Shown: positions 109 to 12,319 of the stretch, one piece after another
Layout: the number at the start of each line of letters is the position of its first letter
Numbering within the stretch: position 1 is the stretch's first letter
Assembly (NCBI GenBank): GCA_022712895.1
Contig: JAFLJS010000024.1
Coordinates: forward strand, 1-42,848
Direction: 5' to 3'
DNA length: 42,848 nt
From: Desulfocapsa sp.
GTDB lineage: Bacteria > Desulfobacterota > Desulfobulbia > Desulfobulbales > Desulfocapsaceae
Notes under the pieces: model-generated
The model's database searches: none
The model's input: only the letters and a program-made list of their open reading frames with translations
Told to the model about the DNA's origin: nothing
Position numbers and translations under genes: made by a program

Positions 109-486
109 ATGAAAAGTTTCAGGAAAATCGTATCAGAAAAAAGAAGAGAAAAAAAACTAACTCTCAGAAAATTAGGGGAGTTAACTGGAATCTCTGCGAG
201 CTACTTATCTGAAATCGAAAATGGAGTAAAATTACCCCCTAAAGATAAGGATAAAATTAAAAAATTGGCGAATACTTTGGGGTATGAATTTAAACGTCTA
301 CTTACTTTGGCTCAAAAAGAGCGTACAAAGGGTAAGATACCAAATGTTCTGGAAAGGTTATTTGGACAAGATGATGAACTTGCTTTGGGGCTATGCCGTG
401 AAGCTGAAAAGGATGATACTAATTTTGAAGAATTAAGAGAAGTTTTCAAGGATGCCCTAAAATCATGGGAGGCGAAGAAAAAGTAA
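109..486 (+). CDS. XRE-family HTH transcriptional regulator
   Basis: 125-residue DNA-binding protein. An N-terminal helix-turn-helix of the Cro/CI (XRE) type spans about residues 5-60, with the typical core LRKLGELTGISASYLSEIENG. The C-terminal half is charged and has no recognised domain. The start ATG is preceded by a strong ribosome-binding site (AAAGGAGG, 7 bases upstream). The stop overlaps the start of the next gene (TAATG), so the two are translationally coupled. XRE plus ImmA/IrrE pairs are known from ICEs, prophages and defence islands, where the protease inactivates the repressor. The twin palindromes at 3-74 are the probable operators. Confidence 0.9.
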   Translation: MKSFRKIVSEKRREKKLTLRKLGELTGISASYLSEIENGVKLPPKDKDKIKKLANTLGYEFKRLLTLAQKERTKGKIPNVLERLFGQDDELALGLCREAEKDDTNFEELREVFKDALKSWEAKKK

Positions 487-1109
487 TGGGAAATTTAAAT
501 TTAAATCAAAAAGTACCCGTTGTTAGGCCTCTCAGCAGAGCGAGAATTGAAAACGACACATTGAAGTTCCTCAAACAGCACCAGCCAGATTCACTTAAAT
601 ACGCACAGGAAGTGGATATCGAAGCTATTTTTGAAATTGTTATTCCCCAAATTAAACCCGGACTAAAAACACGGTATGTTGATTTGTCTTCTATAGGATC
701 AGGTATCATGGGATATACAGATGCTAATAATAAGGTTTGCTGTATACATCAAGAGCTATATGAGGCTGCATTAGCTGATCCAACTTCTTCCGAAGGTAGA
801 CGTTTTAGAGCAACAGTAGCCCATGAAATTTCACATTGTCTCTATCACTATTCTTATTTGAAGACTTTTCAATCATTTTGCTCAGTAGCTGGTAAAAACA
901 CTTTAATGAGAAAACGCAGCGATATCCCTGCATACAAAGATCCTGAATGGCAGGCATGGGAACAAGCTGGAGCATTATTGATGCCTAAGCCATGCATTGA
1001 GAAGCTAATAGAGGAAGGAAAGAGTGCTTGGGAAATTGCAGATATTTTTAATGTTAATCCAGTTTTCGTGCAAGGTAGGATCGAAAGGTTGAATAAATTA
1101 AAAAAATAA
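486..1109 (+). CDS. ImmA/IrrE-family metallopeptidase
   Basis: 207 residues from the ATG that overlaps the XRE stop codon as TAATG. An upstream in-frame ATG at 465 exists, but GGGAGG at 467-472 is well placed for the 486 start. The zinc-protease motif HEISH (residues 113-117 from this start) sits in the context VAHEISHCLYH, as in ImmA/IrrE peptidases, and the C-terminal part has the usual amphipathic helices. In ICEBs1 and Deinococcus, members of this family cleave their partner XRE repressor; here the partner is the gene immediately upstream. The likely job is derepression of the promoter at 27-54 after a stress or infection cue, which is inference. Confidence 0.85.
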   Translation: MGNLNLNQKVPVVRPLSRARIENDTLKFLKQHQPDSLKYAQEVDIEAIFEIVIPQIKPGLKTRYVDLSSIGSGIMGYTDANNKVCCIHQELYEAALADPTSSEGRRFRATVAHEISHCLYHYSYLKTFQSFCSVAGKNTLMRKRSDIPAYKDPEWQAWEQAGALLMPKPCIEKLIEEGKSAWEIADIFNVNPVFVQGRIERLNKLKK

Positions 1110-1374: not shown

Positions 1375-1452
1375 ACAACAAGTTTGTGGGGAGGAGACTG
1401 TATTTCTCTCCACAAACAATTTTCAAGACATAACTCTTTGATAAAGGAAAAT

Positions 1453-1680
1453 ATGATGGATAATTATCACATAACTAAAGCTGGGAAACAATGGAAACTA
1501 AAAAAAGAAGGTAACGAAAGAGCCTCCATTGTCACGGACACAAAAAAAGAAATCATCAATCAAACTAGAACGTTTATGGACAATAAAGTAGCATCCGTTA
1601 AAATTCATAAGGGAAACGGAAGGTTTCAGGAGGAGCGAACTTATCAGAGGATAAACGACCCAAGAAAAAGTAAAGGTTAA
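1453..1680 (+). CDS. DUF2188-like small protein
   Basis: 75 residues from ATG 1453 (AAGGA 1444-1448 supplies the ribosome-binding site; an adjacent ATG at 1456 is equally possible). The sequence has the DUF2188 pattern: HITKAGKQWKLKKEGNERAS, a central helix of about 25 residues, then a C-terminal KIHKGNGRFQEERTY segment. Family members are small single-domain proteins of unknown function, frequent in mobile DNA. A longer in-frame ATG at 1384 lacks a ribosome-binding site and adds non-conserved residues. It ends 4 bp before the -10 box of the putative RNA at 1690. Confidence 0.7.
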   Translation: MMDNYHITKAGKQWKLKKEGNERASIVTDTKKEIINQTRTFMDNKVASVKIHKGNGRFQEERTYQRINDPRKSKG

Positions 1681-1683
1681 CAT

Positions 1684-1689
1684 TATAAT
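1684..1689 (+). promoter_or_regulatory. -10 box for candidate regulatory RNA
   Basis: Perfect TATAAT at 1684-1689, right after the DUF2188-like stop codon. No good -35 box is visible 17 bp upstream. Predicted start of transcription is about 1696, at the base of the hairpin described next. Confidence 0.4.
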
Positions 1690-1873
1690 GGTATTCAGCT
1701 GAAAACCACTACGTCAAGTTTCTTTTTTGCTTGGGCTAGTTTCCGGTACCTTCCACGCTTAGTGTCGTGATGTTTTCAGCTGATACCGGTCTTTTTCGCC
1801 ACCTGCTCAGCCACACGAGCATACCTTGTTTATTTTAAATTGTTCAGGATCGTTCTTTGAAAAACGAATCCTG
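1690..1873 (+). ncRNA. Candidate AvcI/DifV-like inhibitory RNA region
   Basis: Long hairpin: left arm 1690-1706 and right arm 1772-1787 pair over 16 bp with one bulge (core TTCAGCTGAA), and the right arm is followed by CGGTCTTTTT, a terminator-like tail ending near 1796. A second hairpin lies at 1845-1873 (CAGGATCGTT with AACGAATCCTG, one bulged base). The region is non-coding on both strands and sits directly upstream of the AvcD-like gene at 1947. In Vibrio cholerae and E. coli the AvcI/DifV RNA that keeps the deaminase inactive is encoded in exactly this position. Identification is by position and structure only; I see no recognisable primary-sequence match. Confidence 0.5.
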
Positions 1874-1946
1874 TCATCATCCACAGCTTGTGACTTAGGT
1901 CATTGGTCAGCTTTTGATTAAATTAACGCAAATGGGCATATGAATC

Positions 1947-3710
1947 ATGACGGACTTATCTGATGGAATTGATGCAATCTATGAGAATAGGAAGAAATTT
2001 ATAATTATAGGACTGACAGGGCGTACTGGCTCTGGATGTAGTTCTGCTGCTCGAATTCTATCTGAATCAATAGAAAACATAACACTCCCAAAAGCAAAAT
2101 TATGTGGAGATGGTGACGACAGGAAATATAAAATAATCTACGATTTTGCTCAAAACAATTGGGAAAAATTTCACTGGATACAGATTAAGGATGTCATTAC
2201 TTCATTTATTCTTGATAATTCATTTTCTGACTTTGAAGAGTTTGTGTCAGACATTCTGGCAAACGGGTCAACAACTAAAGAGCAAATAAAAGAACAACTT
2301 CGTAATGCAATAAAAGAACAATACACTCTACTGTATACTGAACGAGACAAATTAAATACAGAAAGAAAAGAACTTGAGTCGGCAAGCATAATAGAAAAAG
2401 ATAAAATTGAGTCTCGGAGAGAAAAATCTTATAAGTTTTATTTTGAAACACTTCCTCCATTCACTAAAGAACTTAGAGAAACCTTAAACATATTGTCTGG
2501 AGATAGTTACACTAAAATATATCAAGTAGTTGGTGACAATATTAGAGCATCAGGCAAGGCATTTGATAATAATTTTAATGCAAAAAATATCTATCGAATA
2601 TCTATCAGAGTAAATAAAATCATTAAAATTTTCACAAAGAGAGCCAAGAAAAATAAAGATAATGTTTACATTGTTATAGATACACTTAGAAACCCTTTTG
2701 AAGCCATTTATTTCAGAGAAAGGTATGCAGCATTTTATTTGCTTTCTATTAACACCAAAAATGTCCACAGAGAATATAGGCTAAAAAAATTATTAAACTT
2801 AAACGATGCTCAACTCGAAGATATTGATAAAAAAGAAGGCGAGCATGACTATGATGATGAAAATTTTTTCATATCTCAAAACATCCCCAAATGTATAGAA
2901 TTGTCTGATATACATATAAATAATCCGCATGTCGCAGAAGACGACTTTAGCACTCTGAAAAAACAATTAGCTTGGTATGTTTCTCTAATAATGCACCCCG
3001 GATTAGTCACACCATCAAGGGAAGAAAGATGTATGCAGATTGCTTATAATGCTAAACTAACATCAGGGTGTATCTCTAGACAAGTTGGCGCAACAATAAC
3101 AAATGAGGCAAATTCTGTTAGGGCAATTGGTTGGAATGATCCAGCTCAAGGCCAATCACCATGTTTGTTGAGGAATGTAAGTGATGTCTTAAACAGTGAG
3201 GACGGAACAGTATATAGTCAATTTGAGAAAAACAATAAAGAATTTAGAGATGAAATCAAAAGTAAATATGAGGACAAATTAACGGAAGAAGCCATTATTA
3301 AAAAACTGTGCGGCAGAAATGTTTCATATTGTTTTAAAAAGCTAAAAAACGAGGTAGACAAAAAGAAAAATAAGGGAGGAAATCAGGTACATACTAGATC
3401 ATTACACGCAGAAGAAAATGCTTTTTTACAAATTGTTAAATATGGAGGAACTGGAATTAAAGGAGGCTTTCTTTATACGACAGCAAGTCCATGTGAATTA
3501 TGTTCAAAAAAAGCGTATCAGCTAGGTATTAAGAAAATTATTTACATTGATCCTTATCCCGGCATAGCCAAAGATCATTTCTTACGTATTGGAACAGATT
3601 ATCCATCACTTGTACTATTCCACGGTGCAATTGGAAGAGCATACAATCAATTGTTTGAATCGGTTATTCCCTATAAGGATGAATTAGAGATCATTTTCAG
3701 ATCAGAATAA
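1947..3710 (+). CDS. avcD: Anti-phage deoxycytidylate deaminase, AvcD/DcdV-like
   Basis: 587 residues. The N-terminal P-loop kinase-like domain begins IIIGLTGRTGSGCSS (residues 19-33), in which the Walker A lysine position is Cys31, as I recall for the AvcD/DcdV family. A helical, charged middle region follows. The C-terminal zinc-dependent dCMP/CMP-deaminase domain carries the catalytic signature H487-A-E489 and P515-C516-x-x-C519. Family members deaminate dCTP/dCMP on phage infection, depleting nucleotides, and are held inactive by an RNA encoded just upstream; 1690-1873 is the candidate here. AT-rich codon use matches neighbouring accessory genes. No strong Shine-Dalgarno is visible before the ATG. 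The alternative, an ordinary comEB-type dCMP deaminase, is excluded by the large N-terminal NTPase domain. Confidence 0.87.
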   Translation: MTDLSDGIDAIYENRKKFIIIGLTGRTGSGCSSAARILSESIENITLPKAKLCGDGDDRKYKIIYDFAQNNWEKFHWIQIKDVITSFILDNSFSDFEEFVSDILANGSTTKEQIKEQLRNAIKEQYTLLYTERDKLNTERKELESASIIEKDKIESRREKSYKFYFETLPPFTKELRETLNILSGDSYTKIYQVVGDNIRASGKAFDNNFNAKNIYRISIRVNKIIKIFTKRAKKNKDNVYIVIDTLRNPFEAIYFRERYAAFYLLSINTKNVHREYRLKKLLNLNDAQLEDIDKKEGEHDYDDENFFISQNIPKCIELSDIHINNPHVAEDDFSTLKKQLAWYVSLIMHPGLVTPSREERCMQIAYNAKLTSGCISRQVGATITNEANSVRAIGWNDPAQGQSPCLLRNVSDVLNSEDGTVYSQFEKNNKEFRDEIKSKYEDKLTEEAIIKKLCGRNVSYCFKKLKNEVDKKKNKGGNQVHTRSLHAEENAFLQIVKYGGTGIKGGFLYTTASPCELCSKKAYQLGIKKIIYIDPYPGIAKDHFLRIGTDYPSLVLFHGAIGRAYNQLFESVIPYKDELEIIFRSE

Positions 3711-4459: not shown

Positions 4460-5905
4460 TCATGCTTTGGTGGCAAGTTGATCATATGCAAGTAAACTGG
4501 CAGGATCAAATGAGTCAAATTCCCATCTTGGTAAACGTCTCTTATCTTCTTTATATTCTTTCAAAAGGTGTTCTAAATCACTTGGCTTAGAAATATGCAA
4601 TAGACATTTAACATTGTCAAAATAACTTGATGATATCGATCGAGCAAAAATTTCAAATGGTCGTTGAAAATGACCAACATAAACTAAAGTATCTGGGAAC
4701 CATGATTCAGGGTATGCACTACTGGTTTCGGACTTCATGAATAGAACGAAATCGGCTTGCATTAAATATCTAAATTCGATTCCTGATGATTTGGTACGTT
4801 GCTTAAGGGTATCAGCACATAACGAAAGTCGATTGAGTTCCAATCGTTGGTTCCTATGATCAAAAGATGGCAAATATTTACGAAATACACCATATCCAAC
4901 CATCACTTCGTTGCCATAATCGGGAACATCTGACACATAAAATTGTTGTGTCAATAACAGGTTTATTTCATTAAATCTGTCCAGTTTGAGAAATATTGCA
5001 ACCATATACAAAAAGAGTTCATGAATAATAAATCTGAAATTATCAAAGTCTGATTTGTTCCATGCCCTTACATGCTCTGGTCGATGCATATAAGGTATTA
5101 AAGATTCAAAAAAACGATGTAATTTCAACATATTTTCTTCTGTAGGACAGTAATGAGCAATAGCGAAAAATAAACGGATTGCTTCATTCCGATATGGAAG
5201 AAATCTTTCTACATTTTCTATTACGGCATCATCAAAATCACCTTCAACATCTCCCAACCTGAACTTTTCAATATTTTTTGAAAAAATGGATAAGTATTCA
5301 TCAATAGCACCTGATACATAAGGTTTATCGTCTTTGATTGCAGATATTGCACGTTTGCAAGAAGATGTTGTACCTAATGCAATACCATCTGACTCATCAA
5401 GAAATGATGGTCGTTTTCCCAATGCAGGTTTTACATGAAGTGGCTTTCCGTATATCCACCTCAACAAGGTTTCAAAATTTTCGGAATAATTGTCCGGCTC
5501 ACTTAAATCAATATATATTCGTGACTTGTAGTAAGTAGGTAGGAAGGGCTTTCCTTCTTCATCCTTTTCAACAACAACAGCAACAAACTTATCCTGTTCT
5601 TGTTGGTCATAAACTTCTTTAGAAATGATCTGAGTTTCAGTACCGACTCCTCCTGCACGCCCATCAGCCTTCTTCGCATATGTTTCATCGGATACAATAA
5701 TAACTTTTTCGATAGAAGGATCAGTGACCATTTTTTCCATAAATGCCACTGAATCATGCCCTTCTTTTAAATCCCATTTATCCAATATGATCTCAACACC
5801 TGATTCTTGTAATTCTGTGGCTAATTCTAACACCCACTGCTCATGTGCTTGATCAGACCAACTATACGATATAAATAGTTTTGGATTTTCCATTGTTGTA
5901 GCCAT
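4460..5905 (-). CDS. SEFIR/TIR-domain protein downstream of hsdR
   Basis: 481 residues. Residues 8-160 form a SEFIR-type TIR-like domain: KLFISYSWSDQAHEQWVLEL at the start, then VEIILDKWDLKEGHD, VIIVSDETYAKKADGR and FVAVVVEKDEEGKPFLPTYYKSRIYIDL. The remaining 320 residues are helical, with no recognised domain. TIR and SEFIR domains in bacterial defence commonly act as NAD-cleaving or signalling effectors; activity here is inference. The gene lies 14 bp after the hsdR stop with no clear ribosome-binding site, so it is probably translated by coupling and is the last gene of the hsd operon. A second in-frame ATG (codon 5) is an equally plausible start. Confidence 0.82.
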   Translation of the reverse strand: MATTMENPKLFISYSWSDQAHEQWVLELATELQESGVEIILDKWDLKEGHDSVAFMEKMVTDPSIEKVIIVSDETYAKKADGRAGGVGTETQIISKEVYDQQEQDKFVAVVVEKDEEGKPFLPTYYKSRIYIDLSEPDNYSENFETLLRWIYGKPLHVKPALGKRPSFLDESDGIALGTTSSCKRAISAIKDDKPYVSGAIDEYLSIFSKNIEKFRLGDVEGDFDDAVIENVERFLPYRNEAIRLFFAIAHYCPTEENMLKLHRFFESLIPYMHRPEHVRAWNKSDFDNFRFIIHELFLYMVAIFLKLDRFNEINLLLTQQFYVSDVPDYGNEVMVGYGVFRKYLPSFDHRNQRLELNRLSLCADTLKQRTKSSGIEFRYLMQADFVLFMKSETSSAYPESWFPDTLVYVGHFQRPFEIFARSISSSYFDNVKCLLHISKPSDLEHLLKEYKEDKRRLPRWEFDSFDPASLLAYDQLATKA

Positions 5906-5919
5906 TTGTGAGAAAAAAA

Positions 5920-8900
5920 TTAAGTTATTGGTGCTGACATATTTGTATCATTAGCCTTCATATACACATCATCCAACAAAGCACCAAGGATCATGGTACG
6001 AACATCAGGATTAGTAAAAAACGTATCCACAATCTTTTCATTCCGGCCTTGCCGACCAACAAATGCTTTCATTGCTTCAGATTCAAAAACCTGCTTGAAC
6101 TGATCTTTTGAATTTGCACGTGCCTGTTCATTCAATCTGGCATCATTGACCATGTCACCTGAAATCTGTTCAAACAGTAATTGATCTGCTTTTGTCCATT
6201 CAGTGCCAAAACGTTCATTGATGCTATCTATGATTTTGGATAACGGTGACGTGTGTTCTTCCTTTGCACCACCTGTTCCAACTTCAGAGGCACCTGTGAC
6301 AGGTTCAAAATCATCAATTGCCAATGCGGCACTACCATCAAACGTTTTTTCATTTCTGTATGAAGAAAGGGCAACATCATCATCAAGGTTAATCATCCCA
6401 CCACTAGACCTGTATGGCAGTTTGGTTAACAGGTATCGACCGTAGGCATACATTTTTTCAAGATCAGCGTCAGTCCAGTCAATGATCTGTGAAAGGAAGG
6501 AATACAACCGGACAAATGCCTGAAGGGTACTTTTGAATTCTTCTCCTTCATCAAGATATTTCTCTTCATCGGTTGGCACAGTGGGGTCACGATACTCTTC
6601 TTTGTAACGTGCAACAGCCGGATCAATCAATTTATTAAGTTGCCCATGATCACGTTTTGTCTGTTTCGCCTGTGGCTTAAAGTAGACCTTGGCAAACTCT
6701 TCCACATCAGAAGAACGTATTACAGGTGGAATTTGTATCTTTGTGAGTAGGGTATACAGTTGATTGGGGTCTGTCGGCACATCAATTTCAGTATCTTCAA
6801 AATATGGTTTGAATGATTCTTTGATGTCATCAACAGAATTGGCAAAATCAAGCACGAATGTGTCAACTTTTCCTGCTGTTGTACGATTCAAACGTGAAAG
6901 TGTTTGTACTGCCTTCAGTCCTGACAGCGGTTTATCCACGAACATTGTATGTAATAAGGGTTGATCAAACCCGGTCTGATATTTTTCAGCCACCACCAAC
7001 ACCTGATATTCAGGAGAAGCAAATCTACTGGGAAGTTCTTTTTCACTGAACCCATTCATTCCGGCTTCAGTGGTTTTATCAATTCCACCATTCTTATCAA
7101 GCCTGTCTGGGTCTTCTACTGTGCCAGAAAATGCTACCAAAATTTTGATATCATCATACCCATGTTCTGATATGTATTTGTCAAAAGCATCTTTGTAACG
7201 AACCGCATGAAGCCTTGAACGTGTCACGACCATGGCCTTTGCCAATCCACCAATCTTCTTCATGGTGAAGTTCCTAAAATGCTCCACCATGATTTCTGTC
7301 TTCTGTGCAATGTTGTGTGGGTGTAGGGTCATGAACCTTGCAATTGCTTTTTTGGCCTTTTTCTCATCGACTTCGGGATCATCCTCAATGGCCTTGGACA
7401 GTTTGAAGTAGGTATTGTATGTGGTGTAATGTTTCAGGACATCAAGAATGAAACCTTCTTCAATAGCCTGCCTCATGGAATACAAGTGAAATGGATGTGG
7501 ATTGCCGTCACCTCCAATCACACCGAACATTTCCATGGTCTTTTTCTTTGGTGTGGCTGTGAATGCATAGAATGAGATGTTCGGTTGTTTGCCACGGCTT
7601 TCTGCTTCAGCAATGACCAACTCTTCCAGTGATGGTGGATCTACATTCTTGCTATCATCAATTTCAGCAGTAGCAAGTGTCTCTTCTTCATTCAACGATG
7701 CATCACCATAACCGCCACCAAGCACACCACGAAGGTTCCCAGCACTCTTGCCACTTTGACTTGAATGGGCTTCATCGACAATTACAGCAAAGTTTTTACC
7801 GGAAAGATCTTTCACCTTGCCCATCAGGAAAGAGAACTTCTGGAGGGTTGTTATGATGATTTTTGTGCCTTTGTTGAGTTCATCAGCAAGGTCGGATGAA
7901 TGTTTGTCTTCATCAATCTTGGCAACCACTCCATGTTTATGTTCAATCTGATAGATGGAATCCTGCAACTGTTTGTCAAGGTTCCTACGATCCGACACAA
8001 CAATGACAGATGAAAAAATTGGTTTATTGTCGCTGTTATGAAGGCTTGAGAGCTGATGTGCAGACCATGAAATAGTGTTGGTTTTACCGGAACCTGCACT
8101 GTGTTGAATCAGGAAGTTTTGACCAACACCTTTATCTTTGCTTGTTGCAATTAGATTTCGTGTAGCTGCAAGTTGATGGTAACGTGGAAATATCAATGTC
8201 TCTTTTGTCTTCTTCTTTCCGGTTTTTATATTACGGATTTCTTCTGTTTGTAAGTGGATGAATCTGTGGATGATGTCAAGCCAACTGTCACGTTGCCAGA
8301 CCTGTTCCCATAGATATCCGGTCTTGTATCCAGTTTTATAATCATGATCGACTGTATTGCCTTTGCCACCTTTATTGCCAATATTGAATGGCAGGAAATA
8401 TGTACCATTCCCTGCAAGACGTGTTGCCATGAACACATCATCCGTATCAACGGCAAAATGTACCAATGCACGTTTTTTGTACTGGATCAATGGTGTGTTG
8501 TTAGTGGGCTTCCTATCCTTGATATATTGCCTGATAGCACTGATGAACTTTTGACCTGTGAAAGCATTTTTAAGTTCAACGGTGGCAATGGGAAGTCCAT
8601 TCAGTGAAAGCAACATGTCTATGGAAGATTTTGATTCGGTATCAAAATAAACCTGTCGCATCACTGTTAATTGATTTTGTTTGTACAGTTTTTCTGTTAC
8701 AGGATTTAGGGTGGTGGGTGGTCTGAAATAAGCAAGGTTTATTGTTTGACCACGATCTTTGATGCCATTACGAACAACGTCCAACAGGCCACGTGAATCA
8801 CATTCAGAAGCAATTCTTTTGATTATGGAACCGTCAACACTACTTGCACCATAACTTGCTGTCAGTTTGTCGTATGCTTCTTTTTGGGTGTTTTTGATGA

Positions 8901-9039
8901 AGGATAGAAGTGTTGAAGGATCAAGTGCAAGTTCAGCATCGAATTGAGTTGAATCAGCCTTGGTATATCCGGCATGATCAAGCAACCATGATTCTATGGT
9001 AATTTCAAAATCGGTTTCTGTGGTGGGTTTTGTTCCCAT
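5920..9039 (-). CDS. hsdR: Type I restriction enzyme, restriction subunit
   Basis: 1039 residues, usual length for HsdR. The N-terminal PD-(D/E)xK nuclease shows D141 and E155-L-K157 (DMLLSLNGLPIATVELKN). The translocase has Walker A (SAGSGKT, residues 314-320), DEAH in VIVDEAHSSQSG, FYAFTATP (motif III), and YQTGFDQPLL...QTLSRLNRT (motifs V-VI). The C-terminal helical part binds the methyltransferase core. The enzyme translocates DNA with ATP and cuts unmethylated DNA at a distance. The gene follows hsdS by 20 bp and precedes the SEFIR gene by 14 bp. No frameshift is seen, so the system looks intact. Confidence 0.95.
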   Translation of the reverse strand: MGTKPTTETDFEITIESWLLDHAGYTKADSTQFDAELALDPSTLLSFIKNTQKEAYDKLTASYGASSVDGSIIKRIASECDSRGLLDVVRNGIKDRGQTINLAYFRPPTTLNPVTEKLYKQNQLTVMRQVYFDTESKSSIDMLLSLNGLPIATVELKNAFTGQKFISAIRQYIKDRKPTNNTPLIQYKKRALVHFAVDTDDVFMATRLAGNGTYFLPFNIGNKGGKGNTVDHDYKTGYKTGYLWEQVWQRDSWLDIIHRFIHLQTEEIRNIKTGKKKTKETLIFPRYHQLAATRNLIATSKDKGVGQNFLIQHSAGSGKTNTISWSAHQLSSLHNSDNKPIFSSVIVVSDRRNLDKQLQDSIYQIEHKHGVVAKIDEDKHSSDLADELNKGTKIIITTLQKFSFLMGKVKDLSGKNFAVIVDEAHSSQSGKSAGNLRGVLGGGYGDASLNEEETLATAEIDDSKNVDPPSLEELVIAEAESRGKQPNISFYAFTATPKKKTMEMFGVIGGDGNPHPFHLYSMRQAIEEGFILDVLKHYTTYNTYFKLSKAIEDDPEVDEKKAKKAIARFMTLHPHNIAQKTEIMVEHFRNFTMKKIGGLAKAMVVTRSRLHAVRYKDAFDKYISEHGYDDIKILVAFSGTVEDPDRLDKNGGIDKTTEAGMNGFSEKELPSRFASPEYQVLVVAEKYQTGFDQPLLHTMFVDKPLSGLKAVQTLSRLNRTTAGKVDTFVLDFANSVDDIKESFKPYFEDTEIDVPTDPNQLYTLLTKIQIPPVIRSSDVEEFAKVYFKPQAKQTKRDHGQLNKLIDPAVARYKEEYRDPTVPTDEEKYLDEGEEFKSTLQAFVRLYSFLSQIIDWTDADLEKMYAYGRYLLTKLPYRSSGGMINLDDDVALSSYRNEKTFDGSAALAIDDFEPVTGASEVGTGGAKEEHTSPLSKIIDSINERFGTEWTKADQLLFEQISGDMVNDARLNEQARANSKDQFKQVFESEAMKAFVGRQGRNEKIVDTFFTNPDVRTMILGALLDDVYMKANDTNMSAPIT

Positions 9040-9059
9040 GGTGGTGAGTCCTGTTGTGG

Positions 9060-10361
9060 TTATGCGTTCCTTACATCAATTTTTCCTGTTACTGCTGCTG
9101 ATATTAGGGCTGTTCTACGTTCCTGTAAAAGTTTGGTGGCTTTGTTTGCTTTGGTTATGAGGTTATCGATTTTGTTGGTTGTATTGTCAAGGAACCTTAT
9201 GATATCGACCTGTTCTTGTGTCGGGATTTCAAACAAAGGAATGTTGCCAATATCAGGCATATTGAAATGCACAACAGTTGCTCCTTGTGATAATTGTTCG
9301 ATAAACTCTTGAGACAATCCTGCATAGATTGAATAAACGATGTATTTTGAATCTACTTTTGGTGCTTTTTTTATTAGTACTGTTCTTTGTCCTAAGCAAA
9401 CGACTGGTGTTTTAGGAACTACACAAGCCTCTCCAGCAGGAGCTTCTCGTGTTAGTATGACATCGCCATGTTTTGGAACACCACGCTTTGTCCACCCCCT
9501 GTATCCTTCAGAATCAGTGTGTTTTGCACTTTTTGTGATCAACTTTCCATTACGAATGTTTGCAGTTCTTGCTACTAAATATTTCCCGTCATCAACAAAG
9601 TGTACTGTTTTGTGTTCAGTGTCAATTATTTGATTTACGACATATTTTAATCTTGATTTCAACCAATGTTCTGGCACTTCACCAAGCCATTCAACACCAC
9701 TATCTTTCATTTTGGTATCAGGATTAATGCCTTTGGTAACGGCATAGGAAATAACTGCCTGTCGTTTCTCCTGTAGCAGTAAAATCAATTTTTGTTGTTT
9801 GTTGATCAGGGTGTCGATCTTGGTGGTTTCACAATCAAGGAAGTTGGCAATGATGGCCTGTTCTTCTTGAGATGGAAAAGGAAAAGCAAACGATTTGAAT
9901 TTTTCAGTAGGAAATCTCCATCGACCTAATTGTGAACTACCTTGCCCATGTGAATAAAATATTTTTCCCCAATAACCCATTTGCAGTAAATATAAATAAT
10001 ATTGAGGGGTAGAACGATTATCCACTAAAGAAAAAACTCTATAGTCTGGACTTGTCACTCCATGGAATTTAGATATGTCAACAAATCCTGTCAATAAATC
10101 CATATGGTTCATCGCAAAATCATCAACTTCAACAAACTGATATTTGCTATAATCCATTGATAACTGGCCTTCACCACTTTCAATGTCTTTTATCTTTATT
10201 CCCTGTTGGGTTATGGAAAGGACATCATGACCAATTTCACCGGAAATCCTTTTTCGTATTTGAAAGAGATATTTGATTTTCTTCAGGCTCCATTGATCTG
10301 GCACAACACCTAACCACTCAATACCTGAATCCTTGTATTCTGAATAAGCAGGATACTTCAT
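9060..10361 (-). CDS. hsdS: Type I restriction enzyme, specificity subunit
   Basis: 433 residues with the classical duplicated layout. Target-recognition domain 1 begins KDSGIEWLGVVPDQWSLKKIKYL near the N-terminus and ends in the conserved helix ...EEQAIIANFLDCETTKIDTL. Domain 2 begins MKDSGVEWLGEVPEHWLKSRLKYV and ends ...QEQVDIIRFLDNTTNKIDNLI. The two coiled-coil spacers set the gap of a bipartite recognition site. The ATG overlaps the hsdM stop codon (ATGA), giving tight coupling. The recognition sequence cannot be read from the protein. Domain 1 is the more AT-rich half. Confidence 0.95.
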   Translation of the reverse strand: MKYPAYSEYKDSGIEWLGVVPDQWSLKKIKYLFQIRKRISGEIGHDVLSITQQGIKIKDIESGEGQLSMDYSKYQFVEVDDFAMNHMDLLTGFVDISKFHGVTSPDYRVFSLVDNRSTPQYYLYLLQMGYWGKIFYSHGQGSSQLGRWRFPTEKFKSFAFPFPSQEEQAIIANFLDCETTKIDTLINKQQKLILLLQEKRQAVISYAVTKGINPDTKMKDSGVEWLGEVPEHWLKSRLKYVVNQIIDTEHKTVHFVDDGKYLVARTANIRNGKLITKSAKHTDSEGYRGWTKRGVPKHGDVILTREAPAGEACVVPKTPVVCLGQRTVLIKKAPKVDSKYIVYSIYAGLSQEFIEQLSQGATVVHFNMPDIGNIPLFEIPTQEQVDIIRFLDNTTNKIDNLITKANKATKLLQERRTALISAAVTGKIDVRNA

Positions 10362-12319
10362 GACCGAACTTCTCCAAGAAGTTCCATGATTTCAGCCGAA
10401 ACCTTATCCAGATCAGCATCAATTTCTTCCAAAGGTCGTTGTGGTACATACTTATAAAAATGCCTGTTGAAGGGAATTTCATATCCAACCTTGGTCTTTG
10501 AATAGTCAATCCATGCATCCGGCACATGTGGGATAATTTCACGTTGAAAATATTCTTCAATATCTTCTTTCAGTGGAATGTTTTCATAATCACGAAGATT
10601 GGTATCGGCTTCAGGATCACCGTTCTTCTTACATATGATATCAGCCTCAGGATCATGTTGACCAAGGGCTTTCCATATGGCGTTTATCATGGCTGTTTTT
10701 ACGTCAAGACCTGCAACCTTTAATGATGTTTTCAACGCCTTCAGAAACACGTCACGGTTCATATACGTGTGTTCTTGATCCAGTACCTTGATTGCACCAA
10801 AAATTGCTTCTTGTTTCGATTCAGGCAACTTCTTGAATGAAGCAACAGCCTTTAGTGTTTCAAGACGTTCATCACTTACAATGAAGTTCAGTTGCAAGGG
10901 ACGTTCAACTGTTATCCGGTTATGTCCGAAATCAGTATTGTCGAATATCTTACAGAATTCACCTGCTTCATAGTCACCGAATATTTCAGTGATATTGCCA
11001 ATCTGATCATCGGAAATCTGTTTGCGTTTACTACCAAGACTTTTACGCATAGGGGTATGAAATCCAGTAGCATTGATCAACTGAACCTTGCCTTGCCTTT
11101 GTGGGTTCTTCTGATTGGTAACAATCCATATATAGGTGGCAATGCCTGTGTTGTAGAACATGTCATTTGGCAAGGCTACAATGGCTTCAAGCCAATCATT
11201 TTCGATGATCCATCTTCTTATTTCAGATTCACCACTTCCGGCACTTCCTGTAAACAGAGGTGATCCATTCAGGACAATGGCAAGTCGTGAAGAATCATCA
11301 CCACGATTGAATTTTGAAATCATATGCTGAAGGAACAGCAACGAACCATCTGATACACGTGGCAAACCTGCACCGAACCTGCCACCGTATCCCATGGAAC
11401 TGGATTCCTCTTTTATGAAATCCTGTACCTTTTTCCAATCAACACCGAATGGTGGATTTGACAGCAGGTAATCAAATTGTTCATCAGGAAGACCGTCTTG
11501 TGTGAAAGAGTTGCCGGGGAAGATGTTCTTTGCATTTTGGCCTTTGATCATCATATCGGATTTGCATGTACCATATGACTCATCATTCAACTCTTGACCA
11601 TATACTTCAAGATGTGCATCAGAATTCAGTTCACGAAGGTAATCTTCAGCAACACTCAACATACCCCCTGTTCCACACGCAGGATCATACAGTTTGCGGA
11701 TGACACCTTTCTTTGTCAGAACGTCACCATCTTCCTGAAACAAAAGATTAACCATCAATCGGATCACTTCACGTGGTGTGAAATGTTCACCTGCAGTTTC
11801 ATTTGATTGTTCAGAAAAACGCCTGATAAGTTCTTCAAAAATGTATCCCATCTGAATGTTACTGACTGTGTCAGGATGTAGATTAGCTTGTGCAAAGCGA
11901 CTGACCACCATGTACAGAAGGTTATCCTTATCAAGCCTTGTGATCTGGTCAGGCAACTTGAATCGGTCTATGAAAATTTCACGTGCATCAGAACTGAAAC
12001 TGTTGATGATGTTGTTCAGGTTGGCTGCAATGTTATCAGGATCATCAAGAAGCTTTTCAAACGTGAAAGGTGAGGTGTTGTGAAAGTTTCTGCCGGATGC
12101 CATGTTCAGCATCGTTTCTTTCATTGTGTCGTCAATGCCTTCTGGGAGGGTATCGTATTGTTTCTGGACAACTTCTTTTGTTGGCTCAAGTACACAGTCG
12201 AGTCTGCGTAAAACGGTGAAGGGGAGTACAACTCGCCCATATTCTGATTGCTTGAAGCTTCCACGTAATATTTCAGCAATGCTCCAAATAAAACCGACAC
12301 TTTCATTAAAATTCTTCAT
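10358..12319 (-). CDS. hsdM: Type I restriction enzyme, DNA methyltransferase subunit
   Basis: 653 residues. The N-terminal HsdM_N helical bundle (about 1-130) is followed by the N6-adenine methyltransferase domain: GEHFTPREVI (178-187), SAM-binding motif DPACGTGG (212-219) and catalytic NPPF (288-291). The C-terminal extension beyond residue 480 is longer than in E. coli HsdM and probably contacts HsdS. It methylates adenines in the site read by HsdS and forms M2S and R2M2S complexes. First recognised gene of the leftward operon hsdM-hsdS-hsdR-SEFIR; a short frame at 12316-12471 overlaps its start. Confidence 0.95.
   Translation of the reverse strand: MKNFNESVGFIWSIAEILRGSFKQSEYGRVVLPFTVLRRLDCVLEPTKEVVQKQYDTLPEGIDDTMKETMLNMASGRNFHNTSPFTFEKLLDDPDNIAANLNNIINSFSSDAREIFIDRFKLPDQITRLDKDNLLYMVVSRFAQANLHPDTVSNIQMGYIFEELIRRFSEQSNETAGEHFTPREVIRLMVNLLFQEDGDVLTKKGVIRKLYDPACGTGGMLSVAEDYLRELNSDAHLEVYGQELNDESYGTCKSDMMIKGQNAKNIFPGNSFTQDGLPDEQFDYLLSNPPFGVDWKKVQDFIKEESSSMGYGGRFGAGLPRVSDGSLLFLQHMISKFNRGDDSSRLAIVLNGSPLFTGSAGSGESEIRRWIIENDWLEAIVALPNDMFYNTGIATYIWIVTNQKNPQRQGKVQLINATGFHTPMRKSLGSKRKQISDDQIGNITEIFGDYEAGEFCKIFDNTDFGHNRITVERPLQLNFIVSDERLETLKAVASFKKLPESKQEAIFGAIKVLDQEHTYMNRDVFLKALKTSLKVAGLDVKTAMINAIWKALGQHDPEADIICKKNGDPEADTNLRDYENIPLKEDIEEYFQREIIPHVPDAWIDYSKTKVGYEIPFNRHFYKYVPQRPLEEIDADLDKVSAEIMELLGEVRS

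Follow-up and report, generated by a model that had tools for sequence, protein, structure and literature searches.

Does the large deaminase encoded near the start of this contig depend on an inhibitor RNA made from the DNA just ahead of its gene, or does it keep itself in check? In the AvcID system the non-coding RNA AvcI binds and inhibits the deaminase AvcD; it is slightly under 300 nt long, with a minimum of about 171, and is lost after rifampicin, not after spectinomycin (PMC10511110, accessible portion). This drug contrast favours an RNA inhibitor. The accessible parts of two further articles likewise place a small inhibitory RNA adjoining or upstream of avcD (PMC12409362, PMC9455884). 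We use "window" for the whole stretch of DNA analysed, that is, all 42,848 nt of contig C61 from a 3.68-Mb genome in 75 contigs. A sequence-only reading of the window had proposed that 1690-1940 is such an inhibitor RNA for the deaminase family. The features discussed below are collected in Table 1.

Table 1. Coordinates of features in the window and, where a locus is named, at related loci
Feature	Position	Strand	Basis or remark
HTH regulator	109-486	+	capH-like match in PADLOC
Zn-peptidase, M78/ImmA-like	465-1109	+	slightly below Pfam cut-off; weak capP match
DUF2188 ORF	1384-1680	+	PDC-S16 in PADLOC; probable start ATG 1453 or 1456
TATAAT without -35	1684-1689	+	hexamer check, promoter scan
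Long hairpin, left arm	1690-1706	+	fold
Long hairpin, right arm	1772-1787	+	fold; followed by GGTC and T5, 1788-1796
Second hairpin	1845-1873	+	in centroid fold
Long-form anti-phage dCTP/dCMP deaminase gene, 587 aa (P0001)	1947-3710	+	ORF, PADLOC, NCBIfam, Pfam, tree, AlphaFold2, Foldseek
P-loop GLTGRTGSGCSS, Cys replaces Walker A Lys	2010-2045	+	sequence, alignment
HAE zinc/catalytic motif	3405-3413	+	sequence, alignment
PCELC zinc motif	3489-3503	+	sequence, alignment
SLNW-ending ORF, 65 aa	L293:5889-6086		C67, window's genome
SLNW-ending ORF, 63 aa	L206:1176-1364		
SLNW-ending ORF, 62 aa	L207:2975-3160		

The deaminase gene product, P0001, has the architecture of the anti-phage dCTP deaminase superfamily, with an N-terminal P-loop domain lacking the Walker lysine and a deaminase domain carrying HAE and PCxxC. 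It scores 456 bits against the PADLOC dCTPase model, matches NCBIfam NF041025 (anti-phage dCTP deaminase) over its full length (E 4e-116; 388.4 bits, below the curated cut-off of 400) and contains a Pfam dCMP_cyt_deam_1 match (E 3.7e-16). Other long-form proteins reach up to 448.8 bits with NF041025, and the cut-off is passed by 16 of the 47 searched genomes with a long-form gene (G418 only via a second, short-form gene); it therefore does not split the clades. The P-loop reads G25-R-T-G-S-G30-C31-S32, with cysteine at the Walker lysine position, and both H487-A-E and P515-C-E-L-C519 are found. The AvcD-like fusion of P-loop and deaminase described by the sequence-only reading is borne out. 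Across 53 aligned long-form proteins, the window's included, HAE, P515 and C519 are invariant and C31 (90% or more) and C516 nearly so. The published inactive AvcD double mutant, S49K+E376A, agrees with a P-loop domain that lacks the Walker lysine (PMC10511110, accessible portion).

The AlphaFold2 model of P0001 (47 alignment rows) has two domains, a pLDDT of 89.3 and a pTM of 0.90, with a long helical insert at residues 93-202. Foldseek against the PDB ranks dCMP deaminases first, led by T4 dCMP deaminase (1vq2, E 7.1e-7), and nucleotide-type kinases lower (3lw7, 1.6e-3; 4i1u, 7.8e-3; 1dek, 1.5e-2). The kinase-type matches presumably correspond to the N-terminal half of the protein, the match table giving no ranges. 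Very probably, then, the gene product defends against phages by destroying the building blocks of DNA.

We take the genes around the deaminase gene to be a defence island. Beyond it, on the minus strand, bSEFIR (4460-5905) and type I restriction genes (5920-12319) complete the defence neighbourhood and agree with the earlier assignment of the locus to defence. Ahead of the HTH gene, GTTCGCT-N6-AGCGAAC-like palindromes at 1-20 and 55-74 stand on either side of a TTGACA...TATATT promoter-like site, read by eye; these palindromes are likely autoregulatory operators of that gene. As a conserved partner of the deaminase we rejected DUF2188, the peptidase and the HTH regulator, none of which has a counterpart among the neighbours of 97 other loci (E 1e-6).

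Relatives were gathered by genome and viral scans. A search with P0001 matched 53 of 144 genomes (own included), mostly through short, weak deaminase-motif matches; apart from the window itself, 1e-60 or better was reached in G050, G084 and G051 (split over two contig pieces) alone. NF041025 at 1e-20 found 20 of 389 genomes (own included), 8 of them above the cut-off, and the window's own genome carries a second, short-form AvcD on contig C67 (481.7 bits). We took the best 80 of 525 relatives from the genome scan and the 23 strongest of the 80 retained from the viral scan, the other 57 being weak, partial-protein matches. These 103 loci and ten others make 113; 108 have a start, chosen by rule, and at least 120 bp upstream, and 99 remain after removal of near-duplicates, including the window and the ETEC locus L037. 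Left out for want of a start or upstream DNA were L120, L121, L132, L137 and L038, the last being the closest by identity (55%) among the relatives taken and missing its upstream DNA.

A quick tree built from 120 proteins separates 95 long-form rows (SH-aLRT 100; 94 rows, SH-aLRT 99, minus the long-branched L005) from 25 short-form ones, among them AvcD of ETEC plasmid p58 (L037), assumed to be the tested copy. The window gene falls outside the clade of the tested ETEC AvcD, and the row closest to it, L003, comes from a different genus in the same family (SH-aLRT 98). AvcD of AvcID and P0001 both join a P-loop to a zinc dCMP/dCTP deaminase with HAE and PCxxC, and both score on PADLOC dCTPase or NF041025; however, P0001 is only 27% identical to ETEC AvcD and belongs to a separate deep clade. 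Other AvcD copies in print are VC0175 and one from V. parahaemolyticus. The literature covered, in its accessible portions, yielded no experiment on a long-form member.

The structures that the sequence-only reading saw upstream are there, including the second hairpin and the TATAAT at the start of the first. The long hairpin begins 9 bases after the DUF2188 ORF; its stem has 12 perfect pairs, a one-base bulge and 4 more pairs around a 65-nt interior, and the T-run (T5 at 1792-1796) begins 4 nt past the stem, a placement unlike that of a textbook terminator. The fold of 1684-1800 has a z of -3.2, equalled in stability by 1 of 200 shuffles, and that of 1684-1946 a z of -1.9 (7 of 200). No other perfect 12-mer inverted repeat with a loop of 20-120 nt occurs in the window. 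By itself the 12-mer core is no rarity, since at least one such repeat turns up in 25 of 100 shuffled windows. The 4-pair extension, chosen post hoc, makes a chance origin of the stem unlikely. For the TATAAT, spacings of 15-19 give AGAAAA, AAGAAA, CAAGAA, CCAAGA and CCCAAG, none of them a -35, and the promoter scan does not list it.

Comparison found nothing akin to this segment. Rfam gave no match to 1690-1946 at gathering scores and only chance-level matches at a permissive threshold (best E 1). No DNA match to 1384-1946 turned up in 289 other genomes, plasmids or phages, nor any match to the left-arm 17-mer in IMG/VR viral contigs, and blastn of 1683-1946 against 108 upstream regions (own included) gave, beyond its own, only chance-level hits (best E 0.13). 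An attC site at the hairpin was rejected (no R-box pair in 1301-1946), as was a repeat or mobile element, the hairpin segment being single-copy in the genome. The AvcI covariance-model search proposed by the sequence-only reading came back empty: a narrow model built from the ETEC-type AvcI region (R1) reached E <0.05 across 27 sources only at its 3 training loci and found nothing in 1684-1946. It also misses the AvcI places of the short-form loci L199-L203, L237, L238 and L252, which makes its silence weak evidence. AvcI and the window segment both lie immediately upstream of the deaminase gene; they show no likeness by model or ORF, and the segment is about 107 nt long, against under 300 nt and a minimum of about 171 for AvcI in the accessible text of PMC10511110.

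We then asked whether the long-form clade shares any upstream RNA or partner. No 9-mer occurs in more than 7 of the 99 upstream regions, with base-shuffled controls peaking at 5-7, and the frequent ones are AT-rich or resemble a tRNA end. Folding is not strand-specific across 98 loci (mean z -1.01 sense vs -0.84 antisense); the 250-nt windows used clip the first bases of the window's hairpin, so that its value of 0.35 is no measure of that hairpin. An upstream ORF, called by length alone, is present in 93 of the 99 loci; 17 of the 93 leave less than 100 bp before the start codon, and the median gap of 295 bp would allow room for an RNA at many loci. No small partner gene recurs among the neighbours at E 1e-6 with ORFs of at least 40 aa, a search that a fast-evolving small gene could escape. 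The biggest recurrent families, named by eye, are integrase-like (12 loci), Pseudomonas flank genes (7) and HsdM-like (5). No neighbour element common to the clade could be detected. Small RNAs and small proteins evolve quickly, and at any single locus lack of likeness is weak evidence.

Direct repeats flank the deaminase gene in 6 of 95 loci (L003, L052, L068, L074, L094 and L101), and exact integron R-box pairs lie upstream in 4 of 99 (shuffles: mean 0.3, maximum 3). In L003 (G050:C110), 60-bp attC-like repeats, 75% identical, lie 16 bp ahead of the ATG and 1 bp past the stop; in L101, 93-bp attC-like repeats, 89% identical, leave 44 bp ahead of the start codon and 23 bp beyond the stop. L003 and L101 are the clearest of the six. 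Going by their form, these repeats look like attC sites, and the two loci like single-gene integron cassettes of the long-form deaminase. A mobile unit that carries little but the deaminase ORF argues against an obligatory adjoining antitoxin in the long-form clade; it leaves room for one at the window locus by itself. By eye, four further long-form genes (L119, L129, L131 and L134) sit beside a tmRNA-like 3' end and an integrase-like gene, an integrated-element edge.

The readings of the hairpin can now be weighed. That 1690-1796 is a locus-specific, type III-like RNA antitoxin, which would hold the deaminase off until a phage halts host transcription, has in its favour the position, the 16-pair closing stem, the T-run, the fold (z -3.2) and the AvcI precedent (PMC10511110, accessible portion). 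We nevertheless consider it unlikely: the segment and its left arm have no homologue in the genomes, plasmids, phages and viral contigs searched, the 107 other upstream regions match it only by chance, the nearest tree row, L003, has no room upstream for such an RNA, the TATAAT lacks a -35, and the AvcI-type model, narrow as it is, stays silent. With no homologue, no shared upstream element and cassette relatives that consist of almost the ORF alone, the proposal that 1690-1940 is an inhibitor RNA of the family is not supported; an RNA inhibitor at the window itself is unproven and not favoured. An inhibitory RNA might still be encoded within the ORF or work in trans.

A better case, a little short of an even chance, can be made for the hairpin as a 3' end structure, terminator or stabiliser, of the HTH-peptidase-DUF2188 transcript, unrelated to the deaminase. 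It starts just past the DUF2188 stop and has a T-run after it; however, the long interior and the 4-nt gap to the T-run are unusual for an intrinsic terminator, and it is absent from the terminator scan, whose loop limit of 8 leaves out such hairpins by design. The arms may instead act as DNA, as two palindromes TTCAGCTGA(A/T), 71 bp apart, serving as operator sites. Both arms share a self-palindromic 8-mer, and TTCAGCTGAA with at most one mismatch occurs five times in the window, twice here, a count of 5 or more that 10 of 100 shuffles reach; the palindromes at the HTH promoter are different and absent here, and we give the operator reading little credence.

The reading we favour, as probable, is that the window gene encodes a long-form enzyme of the anti-phage dCTP deaminase superfamily that stands alone and restrains itself, the hairpin being a transcript end or leader; the 3' end reading above is compatible with this. 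A phage trigger would turn the enzyme on, and the active enzyme would deaminate dCTP or dCMP and starve phage DNA synthesis. As no clade-conserved adjoining antitoxin was detected, restraint most likely resides in the protein itself, where the lysine-less P-loop domain and the helical insert are the candidates, and in low expression, the ATG at 1947 having no clear Shine-Dalgarno. Most likely the hairpin would shape either the deaminase mRNA leader or the 3' end of the transcript that covers HTH, peptidase and DUF2188.

The short-form cousins present a different picture. At the AvcI place, ETEC, Klebsiella, two E. coli types, Photobacterium, V. coralliilyticus and several viral contigs have a 56-74-codon ORF, which 5 of 6 named records list as a hypothetical protein. 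Many of these ORFs end in L/I-x-W, and 14 loci were defined as W-tailed by [AS]xx[LI]xW. In the 16-row subclade of ETEC AvcD (SH-aLRT 91), 12 rows have a W-tailed ORF; the remaining four are ETEC-like, with a D-ended 61-codon ORF in L037, L231 and L233 and a profile match in L235. The ETEC-like L230 has the ORF shortened to 44 codons, and it is intact in L231 and L232. The claim that known systems need an upstream RNA calls for caution, since in the ETEC clade that place is mostly taken up by a small ORF. W-tailed ORFs also lie 171 bp behind avcD in L211, 156 bp behind in L240 and 428 bp ahead in L243 (L240 and L243 are absent from the counted tree rows). In the window's genome and two relatives (L206-L208), a small ORF ending SLNW lies behind the short-form avcD and overlaps its stop; like the ORFs upstream of avcD in Enterobacteria and Vibrionaceae, it is a candidate conserved small partner protein.

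The window's long-form gene, unlike most loci of that subclade, has no ORF of such ending or profile upstream or downstream. ORFs that end in [LIVMF]xW lie near 18 of 41 short-form loci; three of the 18 are one chance-like ORF seen repeatedly, and the 41 include duplicates and loci that lack flanking DNA. Among 98 long-form loci there are 2, neither resembling the W-tailed family; no profile hit in long-form loci falls below E 0.6.

The small ORF appears to be protein-coding. Changes at the three codon positions, summed over four independent pairs (three W-tailed, one D-ended), number 74, 70 and 122 (p 1.5e-5), in a test that treats sites as independent; the pair L202-L252 alone gives p 0.12. 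Profiles built without one group were run against six-frame ORFs of 293 loci, and the best non-training ORFs were those of L199 (3.8e-4), L252 (1.4e-4) and L202 (5.1e-3), L206 (3.2e-4) and L208 (1e-3), L211 (5.3e-3), L237 (0.013), L238 (2.4e-4) and L203 (0.11); L200 came at 0.34, and the ORFs of L201, L240 and L243 are missing among the five hits listed. This test does not support kinship between the W-tailed peptides and the D-ended ETEC-type group (E 3.7). Of two held-out loci, L294 has a 56-codon ORF 11 bp ahead of avcD that ends AQKTDW, one residue off the pattern with T replacing L/I, and L295 has no W-tailed ORF beside the deaminase gene. Pfam and NCBIfam gave no convincing family for 17 small ORFs (best E 0.13 and 0.035); PHROGs gave the unnamed family phrog_9966 for two (1.9e-43) and a weaker family for one (0.0016).

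Small downstream ORFs of five other short-form loci (L204, L249, L250, L261 and L295) share an S/E/Q-W-P-x-W motif and are perhaps another partner type of short-form AvcD. Under one downstream-ORF rule, 6 of 17 other short-form loci have any such ORF and 3 the WPxW motif. By eye only, a GGTAGCAAC motif was an early candidate for an element shared by ETEC, the Aeromonas locus L034 and L115.

We tentatively suggest, at somewhat less than even confidence, that the superfamily splits by partner. The ETEC AvcD clade would have a conserved small protein gene, L/I-x-W-ended, or D-ended in ETEC-like loci with kinship only presumed, at the AvcI place or behind avcD; some other short forms would have downstream S/E/Q-W-P-x-W ORFs; and the long-form clade would be partnerless, the window enzyme being autonomous and self-restrained. 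AvcI would then be the short mRNA, or a dual-function RNA, for a partner protein of AvcD. Several results count against a partner ORF: the leave-out outcomes for the D-ended group, L200, L201, L240 and L243, the off-pattern ending in L294 and the missing ORF in L295, the 428-bp distance in L243, the truncation in L230 and the scarcity of downstream ORFs among the 17 other short forms. The printed minimum of about 171 nt would correspond to 57 codons. In the first AvcI paper a start-codon change was reportedly tested and inhibition persisted; a dual-function RNA at the AvcI place would reconcile that result and the drug contrast with the ORF. The open text covered holds no discussion of a small ORF at this place, and the ORF may already be known.

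Should the AvcI place encode a conserved protein, the standing of AvcID as a type III system would need to be retested. If the long-form clade truly acts alone, it offers a compact nucleotide-depleting defence that fits one integron cassette and must be switched by something other than an inhibitor RNA that vanishes once transcription stops. We read the window gene as a stand-alone representative, ordinary to interesting, of an already known defence family, and the partner-gene pattern of its short-form cousins as the more surprising lead. Among the loci surveyed, a Geminocystis plasmid (L033, 1362-4884) has genes for a dGTP triphosphohydrolase and the dCTP deaminase in divergent orientation, so that two nucleotide-depleting genes are neighbours.
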